Shown here: positions 23,213 through 37,982 of the stretch, in pieces
Layout of the letters: each line of letters opens with the position of its first letter
How positions within the stretch are numbered: the first letter of the stretch is position 1
Assembly (NCBI GenBank): GCA_026398235.1
Contig: JAPLTE010000048.1
Location: forward strand, 1-64,000
Direction of reading: 5' to 3'
Length of the DNA: 64,000 nt
Source of the DNA: Verrucomicrobiota bacterium
GTDB taxonomy: Bacteria; Verrucomicrobiota; Verrucomicrobiia; Chthoniobacterales; Chthoniobacteraceae
Position numbers and translations under genes: made by a program
Notes under the pieces: model-generated
Told to the model about the DNA's origin: nothing
The model's database searches: none
What the model saw: only the letters and a program-made list of their open reading frames with translations

Positions 23213-23281
23213 CTTTTAAACGCTTTACAACAAGGCTCACGCAACAGGAAAAGGAATCTGGAACTCAGGATCTCTGATGCG

Positions 23282-23328: not shown

Positions 23329-23336
23329 GGATTTTT
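23329..23336 (+). repeat. Target-site duplication, left copy (GGATTTTT)
   Basis: GGATTTTT abuts the left terminal inverted repeat, and the same 8 bp abuts the right one at 25997-26004, as expected after transposition. Confidence 0.85.
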
Positions 23337-23356
23337 GGTAGTGTCCTAATTTGAAT
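23337..23356 (+). repeat. Left terminal inverted repeat of the cassette
   Basis: GGTAGTGTCCTAATTTGAAT is matched in reverse complement at 25977-25996 with no mismatch. Confidence 0.95.
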
Positions 23357-23454
23357 TTTCTCGCCGGGTTTGCGGAGGTGTGCGATTTTTCCGCCTGGGG
23401 ACTCGAACCCTATGCGGTTCTATCTCCAGCGCAGCGCCAAGCCACCCCCGGTTT

Positions 23455-24456
23455 TTACATCGGCAGGCTCATTGTATCTCCAAATTTTGGAGCGGAAACA
23501 TCAAGTCGCCTCTTGAATTCATCCCATGTTTGGCACCCCCTCATTAAAAAAATCACATTTGAAAGATACTGCTGTAGCTCTGGGATGCCGATATCCTCAG
23601 TTAGGTGCTGATGGTGCTTTCTGGTACGTCTGCCGGTGGTTTCGTTTTTGGGGTTAACTTCGCGCAGCCGCTTCTTGATTCCTGGGGCTAGGCGGTCGTA
23701 CACGATGTCGTTTGTCCAATGTCCAACATACGACGGTTTCACAGAATTGCCGCTAACGTGAATATTCAAATTTTTGAGACGAAATAGATGTTGGTAAAAT
23801 TCCAATGGAAATCGCCGCGTCCACTTTGCCCAATCATCCTTGATATACTTCTCAAGAATTTTTTGAAGGGCTTTGCGATCTCGGATTTCTTGGTATCCTG
23901 TGGCCTCATCAACCAGCGCTAAAATTCCAAGTTTTGCCAAGCTGCGCATAATTATTTCGCATGCCTTGGCAACATTTTGTTGCGAAGAATGAAGTGCTCC
24001 CGGTGTGTCTCGCGCAGAAAGATATGCTTCGCACGCTAATGGAACAATCTCGGCACGATAGCCCTGCTTGCTTGACCCAGATTCCGTTCTGTATTCCACC
24101 ATGTCCAGTACGCCCCGTAACTCCTTTGAAATAAAGGGCTCCAAGTTCTTTGCCTCCAAAAAATTCGGCATGTCGGTACGCTTATATGATCCCTTCCACG
24201 GGCGTCCCAATGCCTTCATAAAACCGGCGCTGTTAATCAGGCGCACTGTCTCGCCGTTTATTTCTACCACCGCACAGGGGATTTTCGCCGTTCCAAGCTC
24301 TATTTCTCCTTCAAAATGAGAAACAGGCAACCCCCACCTCGCATCTGCGGCCTTCTTGGCGATTTCTGCCCGCTGTTCTGCGGACAAGGCTTTTTTCCTC
24401 GCCTCTCCGCCTAATGATTGGATGGATTTTTCCTGCATGGATGAGAGATTTGCCAA
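23455..24456 (-). CDS. P63C-domain protein
   Basis: The 333-residue protein carries the P63C domain in its C-terminal half (LVDEATGYQEIRDRKALQKI, EFYQHLFRLKN, then HWTNDIVYDRLAPGIKKRLR and QHLTEDIGI). The N-terminal 40 residues are charged and helical (LGGEARKKALSAEQRAEIAK). P63C proteins occur on phages and mobile elements; no biochemical role is established. It lies downstream of the DNA methyltransferase inside the cassette, where a restriction enzyme would be expected, but no nuclease motif is evident. Confidence 0.85.
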   Translation of the reverse strand: MANLSSMQEKSIQSLGGEARKKALSAEQRAEIAKKAADARWGLPVSHFEGEIELGTAKIPCAVVEINGETVRLINSAGFMKALGRPWKGSYKRTDMPNFLEAKNLEPFISKELRGVLDMVEYRTESGSSKQGYRAEIVPLACEAYLSARDTPGALHSSQQNVAKACEIIMRSLAKLGILALVDEATGYQEIRDRKALQKILEKYIKDDWAKWTRRFPLEFYQHLFRLKNLNIHVSGNSVKPSYVGHWTNDIVYDRLAPGIKKRLREVNPKNETTGRRTRKHHQHLTEDIGIPELQQYLSNVIFLMRGCQTWDEFKRRLDVSAPKFGDTMSLPM

Positions 24457-24527
24457 AAGTTATGCTTTCTTGCAAGCACAAAAAGATTTTGCTTTAAGTG
24501 CTTGCAAGGATTTGAGAATATCCGCGT

Positions 24528-24578
24528 ATGGCAAACATCCTCTCAAAAGAAAAACAGGCCGCAGTTGGAGGTCTTTGA
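24528..24578 (+). pseudogene. Possible N-terminal remnant of an IS1-type transposase
   Basis: ATG 24528 reads MANILSKEKQAAVGGL and then a stop. Many IS1-family transposases of PVC bacteria begin in this manner, with a basic helix leading into a HTH. Only this fragment remains; the rest is replaced by an unrelated small frame. The identification is from memory of family starts and is tentative. Confidence 0.35.
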
Positions 24579-24728
24579 CCTTACGGGCCACCCTAAAGCC
24601 AAACGATGCTATGCTGGCACTATCTAGACGGCAAAACATGGCGCTACACGGCGGTTTTAGAGATTCCGCCCGTGGATTCTCCACAAATGGCCGTCTTGGT
24701 GGCGGTTGCGGCTAAGGCGAAATCATGA
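24562..24728 (+). pseudogene. Remnant of a small conserved mobile-element protein, one frameshift
   Basis: One frame reads QLEVFDLTGHPKAKRCYA up to about 24614. The next frame continues WHYLDGKTWRYTAVLEIPPV and stops at 24728. Joining them by adding one T restores a plausible 55-residue protein. Such small proteins are common near insertion sequences and in phage-like regions; the function is unknown. Its end overlaps the stop of the methyltransferase gene on the other strand. Confidence 0.45.
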
Positions 24729-25592
24729 GCGGCATCTTTCTTTAATTTTGGTCAGTGCGGAAGATGCCCCCATACTCTTCAATTCTTCTATCGCCACTTT
24801 GACATATTCACCATCTATCTCGAAGCCGCTAAAACTCGCAACATGACGCTCCACAGCAGCAAATGCGGTGTGCCCTATTCCCAAAAATGGGTCCATTACT
24901 ACGGAGTCGCCATTTTTTCCGTGAAGTTTGATGCACTGCTCTGCCAATTCAGTGGGAAATGTTGCTGGATGAGGGCGATCCTTGGCTCGATTGCAAATTG
25001 TCTTGTAGGGAATGAACCAGGTATTCCCTCTGCATTTTACATCTTCTCCGCCTGTATGCCCCCATCGTGAAATGTTGCTTTTATCGGCGTATGGAACCCC
25101 GACCGCTTTTCGGTCTAGGTGGGTATCGCCGCGCGGCGTTAAGTGGAAAATATATTCGTGCAGATCATTTACAAAACGATCCGAATTGATTGGTTTGTAG
25201 TGCCCGAAATGTCTTGTTTCCTCTCCGTCCTTCCCTGGCATAGCAATAGACTTGATCCAATGAATCGTATTTTGAAGATGAAACATCTCATTTTCCTGCA
25301 CAAGCCTCTGGACAATGGCATGGGGCAATAAGGGCTGTTTTAAGGAGCCGCCCACATTCAAAAAAAGCGATCCATCTTCTTTTAATGTTCTTCTCACTTC
25401 TGAGGCCCATTCATCTGTCCATTCCAAATATTCCTCCCACTGGAGCGTGTCGGAATACGAGCGGTAGGATATTCCGAGATTATATGGGGGAGATGTGACG
25501 ACAATATCAACGGTTTTGGACTGAACGAACTGCCGCATACCAGCAACGCAGTCTCCGTGAAAAATATTGATGGATGTGGGAGAAAAATTCAT
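24723..25592 (-). CDS. Site-specific DNA methyltransferase, beta-class (N4-cytosine or N6-adenine)
   Basis: Transfers a methyl group from SAM to an exocyclic amino group in a DNA site. The catalytic motif IV TSPPYNLG occurs near residue 33, before the SAM-binding motif MDPFLGIGHTAFAA near residue 240, which is the beta-class order. TSPPY favours N4-cytosine but does not exclude N6-adenine. I use ATG 25592 (MNFSPTSINIFHGDC, 289 residues), since the frame upstream overlaps the neighbouring 90-residue gene. It is the middle gene of the cassette. The recognition sequence cannot be read from the protein. Confidence 0.92.
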   Translation of the reverse strand: MNFSPTSINIFHGDCVAGMRQFVQSKTVDIVVTSPPYNLGISYRSYSDTLQWEEYLEWTDEWASEVRRTLKEDGSLFLNVGGSLKQPLLPHAIVQRLVQENEMFHLQNTIHWIKSIAMPGKDGEETRHFGHYKPINSDRFVNDLHEYIFHLTPRGDTHLDRKAVGVPYADKSNISRWGHTGGEDVKCRGNTWFIPYKTICNRAKDRPHPATFPTELAEQCIKLHGKNGDSVVMDPFLGIGHTAFAAVERHVASFSGFEIDGEYVKVAIEELKSMGASSALTKIKERCRS

Positions 25593-25653
25593 GGCGAAAT
25601 GAATTTCGACAATCCAATCCAAAAAGTACAGGAAAAAATATATTTGCAAATCA

Positions 25654-25926
25654 CTAATTTTCAGCAACTTGCCTGCCCAGCCTCGGCCCAAGCGTGCGAC
25701 AAAAAATTGTCACAAGCCGTTTTTCCCACCCTCCATTACCATAATCGAACGCATACCGGGGAATTTTTTCCTCATGTTCATCCATCAACTCCAATTCCCC
25801 CGTTTCCCTATTAACCCGGCGCTGCAATTCAACCAGTAAGCCTTGATAACCCCCATCTCGCTCTGTGGCAGGTGACTGCTCATCCAACTCTGCGATTTCC
25901 TCCTGATTCAATATTACAATTCGCAT
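25654..25926 (-). CDS. Small acidic protein of unknown function (first gene of the cassette)
   Basis: 90 residues from ATG 25926: MRIVILNQEEIAELDEQSPA, a central charged region and RYAFDYGNGGWEKRLVTIF near the C-terminus. It lies 61 bp upstream of the methyltransferase on the same strand. Similar small proteins precede methyltransferases in other mobile restriction-modification loci as far as I recall, but I cannot name the family. A regulatory (controller-like) or accessory role is possible. No HTH is evident. Confidence 0.6.
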   Translation of the reverse strand: MRIVILNQEEIAELDEQSPATERDGGYQGLLVELQRRVNRETGELELMDEHEEKIPRYAFDYGNGGWEKRLVTIFCRTLGPRLGRQVAEN

Positions 25927-25976
25927 ATTGGATCGTATTTTAGCGCTGCGCCGTCCGAAGATCAAGTTTTTCAAAG

Positions 25977-25996
25977 ATTCAAATTAGGACACTACC
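25977..25996 (-). repeat. Right terminal inverted repeat of the cassette
   Basis: Exact reverse complement of 23337-23356. Confidence 0.95.
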
Positions 25997-26004
25997 GGAT
26001 TTTT
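25997..26004 (+). repeat. Target-site duplication, right copy (GGATTTTT)
   Basis: Matches 23329-23336 and directly abuts the right inverted repeat. Confidence 0.85.
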
Positions 26005-30754: not shown

Positions 30755-31452
30755 GTGTGGAAACGATCTGCTCCAGAATAGAATCGCCCACCCCGAGGGC
30801 AAGCGCAAAGGGGAGGGGGAGTAATCCGCAGATTTCGCAGATTAACGCAGATTTTTACGGAAAAGGAGGGGCTGGTCTCGCGCAAAGAACGCAAAGGACG
30901 CAAAGAAGGGAAGGATCGGAGGCCCAGGAGGGTTCAGGGGAAGGATCAGAGAACCCGGAGGGTTCGTAAGAGAATAGCCGGGGGTTGAGCGAAGCGACAC
31001 CCCCGGTTTCAATAACGATTGGCTCACCCCGGAGGGGTGGCAGAAAACCCGCGCCTGCCACCCCGTTGGGGTGAGCGCAAAGGGGAGGGGGAGTAATCCG
31101 CAGATTTCGCAGATTAACGCAGATTTTTACGGAAAAGGAGGGGCTGGTTTCGCGCAAAGAACGCGAAGGACGCAAAGAGCGGAAGGATCGGAGGACCCGA
31201 GGGTTCAGGGGAAGGATCGGAGAACCCGGAGGGTTTGTAAGAGAATAGCCGGGGGTTGAGCGAAGCGACACCCCCGGTTTCAATAACGATTGGCTCACCC
31301 CGGAGGGGTGGCAGAAAACCCGCGCCTGCCACCCCGAGGGCAAGCGCAAAGGGAGGGGGGAGTAATCCGCAGATTTCGCAGATTAACGCAGATTTTTACG
31401 GAAAAGGAGGGGCTGGTTTCGCGCAAAGAACGCAAAGGACGCAAAGCAAGCG
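30755..31452. other. Gene-free tandem-repeat interval
   Basis: No gene is seen. It is filled by a roughly 270-bp repeat in about 2.4 copies, with short hairpins inside. Frames open here run across the repeat and are not coding. Confidence 0.7.
30790..31450 (+). repeat. About 270-bp tandem repeat, 2.4 copies
   Basis: The landmark GTAATCCGCAGATTTCGCAG starts at 30821, 31093 and 31362, so the periods are 272 and 269 bp. Each full copy holds the ATTAACGCAGATTTTTACGG segment, a CGCAAAGAACGCAAAGGACG segment, a CCGGGGGT/ACCCCCGG hairpin and a CACCCC/GGGGTG mini-stem. The third copy is cut off at the CGCAAAG segment. Confidence 0.9.
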
Positions 31453-31845
31453 TCACATGCGGTCTGCTTTGGCCGAACGACACCGCCTTGCAATACAGCA
31501 AACAGCCTGCATCAGGCCATAAACCAAAATCCACGGGACGGAATAAACCAAACCATAGGCCCAACCAAAAAGCAGTGCAAAAATCATTTTGGCACCATCT
31601 GCGCAGCGGAGCGCCAGCAAATCGGCGGGGGCATGGTTGCATTCCGCGTACGGGCGCAAGAGGTCGTCCAGATGCGCGTAGTAGAAATGCACTGCCGCGT
31701 TGACGAGGAACCATCCCAGCACCGCAACCAGCACAGCCGCAAACCACCATGGCATCAGCTTGGGCCGAAATGCCCGAATACAAAGCACAATGGGGGGCAG
31801 GGCAAAGAACGCCCAAAGCGCTGTAAGATAGATGATGCGGTTCAT
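31453..31845 (-). CDS. Membrane protein of unknown function (130 aa)
   Basis: From ATG 31845 (MNRIIYLTALWAFFALPPIV) there are three to four hydrophobic segments, and the C-terminus is Cys/Arg rich. It overlaps the ribD stop by 4 bp, so it is probably translated with ribD. Its 3' end lies at the tandem-repeat region. No family recognised. Confidence 0.65.
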   Translation of the reverse strand: MNRIIYLTALWAFFALPPIVLCIRAFRPKLMPWWFAAVLVAVLGWFLVNAAVHFYYAHLDDLLRPYAECNHAPADLLALRCADGAKMIFALLFGWAYGLVYSVPWILVYGLMQAVCCIARRCRSAKADRM

Positions 31846-37796: not shown

Positions 37797-37828
37797 CCGG
37801 GCGCATCCGAATCGGAAGAAAGACAGAA

Positions 37829-37950
37829 AATCTGGAACTCAGGAAAACGAGAACTCCCATTCGCGCGAGGCCTTTCTTTTCTCTCGTTTCCTGGTTTCCT
37901 GGTTTCCTGATTGTTTTTTCTCTTTTTCCTGAGTTCCTGAGTTCCAGATT
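37829..37950. repeat. Inverted repeat pair AATCTGGAACTCAGGA
   Basis: AATCTGGAACTCAGGA at 37829 is mirrored by TCCTGAGTTCCAGATT ending at 37950, with TTTCCTGG/CCTGATT repeats between. The same motif lies at 481-505, 1009-1033 and 23251-23268. It separates the protease pair from holA and could end transcription. Confidence 0.7.
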
Positions 37951-37982
37951 GTTTTTTTCCTGCGTTCGCCCAAAATTCCGTA

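Follow-up and report, generated by a model that had tools for sequence, protein, structure and literature searches.

A DNA methyltransferase transposon with IS1-type ends and a transposase fossil in a Verrucomicrobiota genome

Classical IS1 elements have a short insA/insB frameshift arrangement. Mobile insertion cassettes (MICs) consist of insertion sequence (IS) ends that enclose passenger genes, the transposase being absent. MICs are named in PMC3129680, and insertion sequences that retain a transposase along with passenger genes are described as transporter IS, or tIS (PMC9330008, PMC3129680, PMC7986276). Tn7-like transposons carry restriction-modification, ImmA-type and toxin-antitoxin genes as cargo (PMC8649781).

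The locus described here lies in a 64,000-nucleotide stretch of DNA from a Verrucomicrobiota bacterium, the whole of which is called the window, and it can be set beside each of these systems. As in a MIC, IS ends bound passenger genes and no transposase is present; the difference is that a transposase fossil, together with full-length relatives in other genomes, reveals the origin of the window element. IS ends and a target duplication are shared with tIS, but the window copy is without the transposase, whereas L023 and most other relatives hold a transposase and unrelated passengers between IS ends with a target-site duplication (TSD) and are tIS themselves. Ends that start GGT, 8-9-bp duplications and, in the relatives, a DDE_Tnp_IS1 domain recall classical IS1; the relatives, however, have a single transposase frame in place of overlapping insA/insB with a programmed frameshift, a co-gene, and 1-3 kb of cargo. 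The cargo of the group, like that of Tn7-like transposons, includes defence and toxin-antitoxin genes, but it travels with a single small DDE transposase in elements of 1-4.4 kb, typically one module per element. The literature searched (general reviews, with ISfinder outside the comparison) describes no group of IS1-family elements whose passengers are of the defence type, and an IS1-type group whose members carry single-module cargo and have repeatedly lost the transposase seems to be new.

The unit in the window is very probably an IS1-family passenger-gene transposon that lost its transposase by internal deletion, a derivative of the mobile-insertion-cassette type. It represents a readable intermediate, in which an IS gains a passenger and later loses its transposase, so that inverted repeats are left enclosing a methyltransferase cassette. 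Restriction genes described as lying between inverted repeats are thereby linked to one particular transposase family, of which there are intact members open to testing.

Boundaries and insertion site

The element is flanked by two copies of the 8-bp TSD GGATTTTT (positions 23329 to 23336 and 25997 to 26004), evident in the sequence and returned by a detector with exact TSD. Directly inside these, the left inverted end GGTAGTGTCCTAATTTGAAT (23337 to 23356, plus strand) has its exact reverse complement as the right end (25977 to 25996, minus strand). The two agree at 20 of 20 bp, or at 22 of 23 when extended to 23 bp, and 2660 bp (2.66 kb) of DNA lie between their outer limits. Terminal inverted repeats starting GG(T) with an 8-9-bp duplication are features of the IS1 family. 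A search of 100 dinucleotide shuffles returned zero end matches with up to three mismatches tolerated; these shuffles, together with the reversed-pattern and reversed-sequence controls given below, exclude chance repeats as the source of the ends. At the same tolerance, the host genome has no further copy of the 20-mer beyond the two ends of the element. The perfect ends and 8-bp duplication of the original prediction are thus exact, and its account of three enclosed low-GC genes on one strand is equally accurate: all are on the minus strand, and GC content is 0.43-0.50 inside the element versus about 0.56-0.66 in the flanks.

A 125-base empty-site query, in which the two flanks are joined without the element, matches at 86% identity an uninterrupted intergenic palindromic repeat in contig C90 of the same genome. 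That repeat runs on across the point of insertion, where it has GGATTTC(T) once, and is a paralogous rather than an orthologous site. In the congeners G001 and G003, an ABC transporter and a DUF748-like gene are again neighbours, and the distance from one matching point to the other is about 180 and 280 bp, so that a gap of ~3.1 kb in the window compares with less than 0.3 kb in these genomes. Both sites are without the intergenic repeat as well as the element, so absence of the element is evident while the base-exact junction is not. For the congener G002, which has the closest transporter (94% identical), the alignment stops short of the insertion point, and none of the three congeners provides a base-exact orthologous empty site. 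The uninterrupted C90 repeat and the narrow neighbour gaps bear out the proposal of a transposon with real borders. The outcome named beforehand as damaging to it, conserved synteny across the borders with no empty allele, was not encountered, as G001 and G003 lack the element.

Other repeats in the window include a dispersed intergenic repeat with AATCTGGAACTCAGGA (476-508, 1008-1037, 23249-23274 and 37823-37956), one copy of which is just left of the element and adjoins the palindromic repeat that the element entered. A long intergenic array of the 8-base unit GGCACGAA occupies 536-734, and a near-identical tandem unit of ~270 bases, in two full copies plus part of a third, occupies 30797-31466.

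The transposase fossil and elements with the same ends

Between the P63C and methyltransferase genes, the plus strand from 24528 reads ATGGCAAACATCCTCTCAAAAGAAAAACAGGCCGCAGTTGG, which encodes MANILSKEKQAAVG, the conserved transposase start in relatives (MANILSTEKQAVVIG in L023 and MANILSKEKQIAVIS in L068). By match to the transposases of relatives, this fossil (24528 to 24570, plus strand) represents the opening ~14 codons of a transposase of the IS1 family; MANILSKEKQAAVGG, read from 24528, matches the transposases of L023, L067, L068 and L071. The transposase start joins directly to VEVFDLTGHPKAKRCYA, followed by one frameshift and then AVLEIPPVDSPQMAVLVAVAAKAKS and a stop codon, a stretch (24565 to 24728, plus strand) that corresponds to the 3' half of the ~98-aa co-gene found beside transposases in relatives. 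Relative to L023, ~0.9 kb is absent; restoring it gives an ancestor of about 3.5 kb, a length that falls inside the 2.3-4.4 kb span of cargo-bearing relatives with a transposase. Because only ~14 transposase codons are left, with no IS1-type DDE transposase inside, the window element is a derivative of IS1 and not an IS. The original prediction of a unit with no transposase therefore holds for an intact gene, but overlooked a fossil readable on the plus strand at 24528-24728; similarly, the methyltransferase and its companions do lie inside a transposon, but one that appears to descend by deletion from an autonomous transposon with cargo rather than being a primary cassette. No intact homologue of the fossil's transposase was detected in the host genome (~95% complete), while the same query, run on 213 genomes of the order, finds homologues in 27.

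The 20-bp end, allowing up to three mismatches, occurs in 20 of 57 relatives. Across the class, the end pattern with at most one mismatch is found in 39 of 384 genomes, versus 0 of 384 for the reversed-pattern control, and many of the genomes that have the end show paired ends with exact 8-bp duplications. For loci L067 to L105, the detector returned 25 end pairs with exact TSD, while 480 kb of reversed sequence yielded no pair, and four further paired-end copies in the class have exact 8-bp TSDs in every case (4/4). The ends vary by subgroup (GGTAGTGTCCTAATTTGAA, GGTAGTGGGTCAGTTTGAA, GGTGTTGGGGTGCC), and nearly all begin GGT or GGC.

Besides the window element, METHYLTRANSFERASE elements include L023 and L137. 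The first of these, from genome G026, is 4373 bp long with inverted repeats matching at 19 of 20 positions and the TSD CGCGCTCA. It keeps its transposase and co-gene alongside a methyltransferase 57% identical to the window enzyme and an upstream 217-aa protein, p217, with a C-terminal region resembling the 90-aa protein p90 of the window element (34%, E 1e-8). Intact transposase-bearing elements of this kind occur across the order, so the suggested search of relatives for a full IS with the same ends succeeds. L137, from a Limisphaerales MAG, is 2157 bp long with the 9-bp TSD GGTTTTTTT, and contains a p217-methyltransferase pair and a 26-codon transposase fossil; it is a second, independent transposase loss in a methyltransferase element. 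A third deletion derivative, L224 (1108 bp), holds the 3' half of the co-gene, and L022 (846 bp, DUF4760) and L025 (961 bp) are cargo-only elements with exact TSDs. The methyltransferase gene is downstream of the transposase and convergent in the window but divergent in L023 and L137, and this differing placement suggests separate captures.

A transposase that worked on the 20-bp ends would have placed the ~3.5-kb ancestor in the loop of the intergenic palindromic repeat, giving the 8-bp duplication. A later deletion of some 0.9 kb would have run from codon ~14 of the transposase to codon ~45 of the co-gene, sparing the ends and cargo. The methyltransferase was probably retained, with its p90 partner, as a passenger, and the ends are predicted to be still fit for a transposase supplied in trans, making the element a candidate for mobilisation. 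The host assembly is a draft of 144 contigs (~95% complete); since a single copy and no cognate transposase were detected in it, the deletion may postdate the insertion, and the element may never have transposed in its shortened state. The opposite order, in which an element already without its transposase was moved in by one acting in trans that has since been lost or left unassembled, is possible but somewhat doubtful. Recurrence of cargo-only elements with exact TSD (L137 with a methyltransferase, L224, L022, L025 and a ~118-bp MITE-like copy) and the still-perfect ends of the window element speak for it; on the other side, the genome holds a single copy, identical copies are lacking elsewhere, the search for a helper transposase found none, and the fossil is so easily readable that the deletion must be young.

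Passenger genes of the window element

The P63C-domain protein (23455 to 24456, minus strand; 333 aa) is identified by Pfam model PF10546 (1.7e-28) and by a full-length match to the phage family phrog_2384 (5.6e-105), with a weak match to an anti-repressor family. Its predicted structure (pLDDT 69.5) has no significant match in a PDB fold search. P63C genes occur in 7 of 213 genomes of the order, and six of the seven, that of the window included, are inside or adjoining an IS1-like transposase or a transposase fossil. P63C is either a recurrent passenger of IS1-like elements or an accessory of them.

The methyltransferase (24723 to 25589, minus strand; 288 aa from ATG) matches PF01555 (1.5e-41) and the PADLOC model MTase_II (2.9e-87), and has both N4-cytosine and N6-adenine enzymes among its PDB relatives. 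The METHYLTRANSFERASE enzyme is of the beta class by motif order, TSPPYN preceding FLGIG. A second methyltransferase of the host, on contig C8, is 55% identical to it. In a phylogenetic tree the C8 copy groups with the host genus and the window enzyme pairs with a Chthoniobacterales sequence as its sister (support 100/99), which marks the transposon copy as a second enzyme gained by horizontal transfer and separate from the orphan enzyme native to the host. The company of the C8 enzyme in this tree also points to a verrucomicrobial MAG as the host. The C8 gene (locus L162, 17364-18164 of that contig) is a vertically inherited member of the same family, and in several relatives methyltransferases of its type stand alone beside housekeeping genes, which we take by eye to resemble xseA, thiG, speA and uvrB. 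The putative role of the window methyltransferase is likely the shielding of element or host DNA from restriction, or a modification related to phage defence.

The third gene (25654 to 25926, minus strand) encodes p90, which has no match among Pfam, PADLOC, PHROG or NCBIfam models. In an Acidisphaera MAG, a related methyltransferase has a homologue of p90 (52%) fused to its C-terminus (L157, 111-1112), and p90 is for this reason probably a methyltransferase helper.

These three genes might instead form a restriction-modification or addiction unit, a mobile selfish pair with P63C or p90 as partner to the methyltransferase. The enzyme does match type II methyltransferase models, and a p90-like or p217 gene is upstream of it in the window, L023 and L137, with the p90 domain fused in L157. 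No nuclease family match is found in p90 or P63C, however, so that a cognate endonuclease of a recognised type is lacking and one of unrecognised type would have to be supposed. Other IS1-like elements carry P63C but no methyltransferase, closely related methyltransferases in other places are solitary genes beside housekeeping genes, and the fusion in L157 makes p90 look more like a helper domain than a nuclease. We consider such a unit improbable. The restriction-modification genes to which the original prediction likened this cassette are in no shown sense present, as no restriction enzyme is recognised.

Transposase family and cargo of the group

Most of the elements with paired ends hold a transposase of ~274 aa in one open frame. 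That of L023 passes the DDE_Tnp_IS1 model PF03400 (35.4 bits, versus a cut-off of 24.1) and matches the NCBI IS1 model with a score under the model cut-off. Among seventeen element transposases, D67-E68, W70, G90-D91 and W93 are invariant and D124, D138 and E203 near-invariant (L068 numbering). Many elements keep the ~98-aa co-gene directly 3' of the transposase (3492-3788 in L023, and equivalents), and its predicted structure (pLDDT 91) has no significant PDB fold match. Derivation from the IS1595 family, first offered beside IS1 because both fit GG-starting ends and an 8-bp duplication, has a negligible chance of being correct: the IS1595 transposase domain PF12762 is found neither in the host genome nor between the same ends, where the transposases are DDE_Tnp_IS1, and it is these that the window fossil matches, leaving IS1 as the half of that proposal that stands.

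Model matches identify AbiU in L075 (2.2e-144), SoFic in L084 (3.4e-101), PD-Lambda-2_B in L083 (3.2e-35), RmrA-type HTH-ImmA proteins in L079 and L080, a zeta toxin in L072, a HigBA-like Gp49/HTH pair in L081, a SocA-like SocA/Panacea protein in L024, an NYN protein in L068, an aspartyl protease in L067 and a ClpP-like protein in L078. A second ClpP-like protein, in L082, was assigned by clustering; L097 carries DUF3800, and P63C genes are also present in related IS1-like elements. PADLOC matched at least 6 of 48 cargo proteins (RmrA twice, AbiU, SoFic, MTase and PD-Lambda-2_B), versus at most a few of 48 in a flank control, mostly by generic helicase or transporter-type models. Because the samples are small, enrichment of the cargo for defence genes is suggestive only. 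These findings point to small transposons of the IS1 type as vehicles for individual defence or toxin-antitoxin genes. We give even chances to a broader reading, in which a clade of IS1-family transposons, widespread in this bacterial class, serves as a minimal shuttle that moves immunity or addiction modules one at a time (methyltransferase, AbiU, SoFic, ImmA/RmrA, PD-Lambda-2, zeta, HigBA and SocA), and repeatedly sheds its transposase to leave cargo-only cassettes, that of the window among them, fixed in the genome.

MITE-like elements of 118-257 bp, with the same end type and exact 8-bp duplications, are present at L036 (3404-3521), L227 (5335-5591) and L095 (6887-7142).
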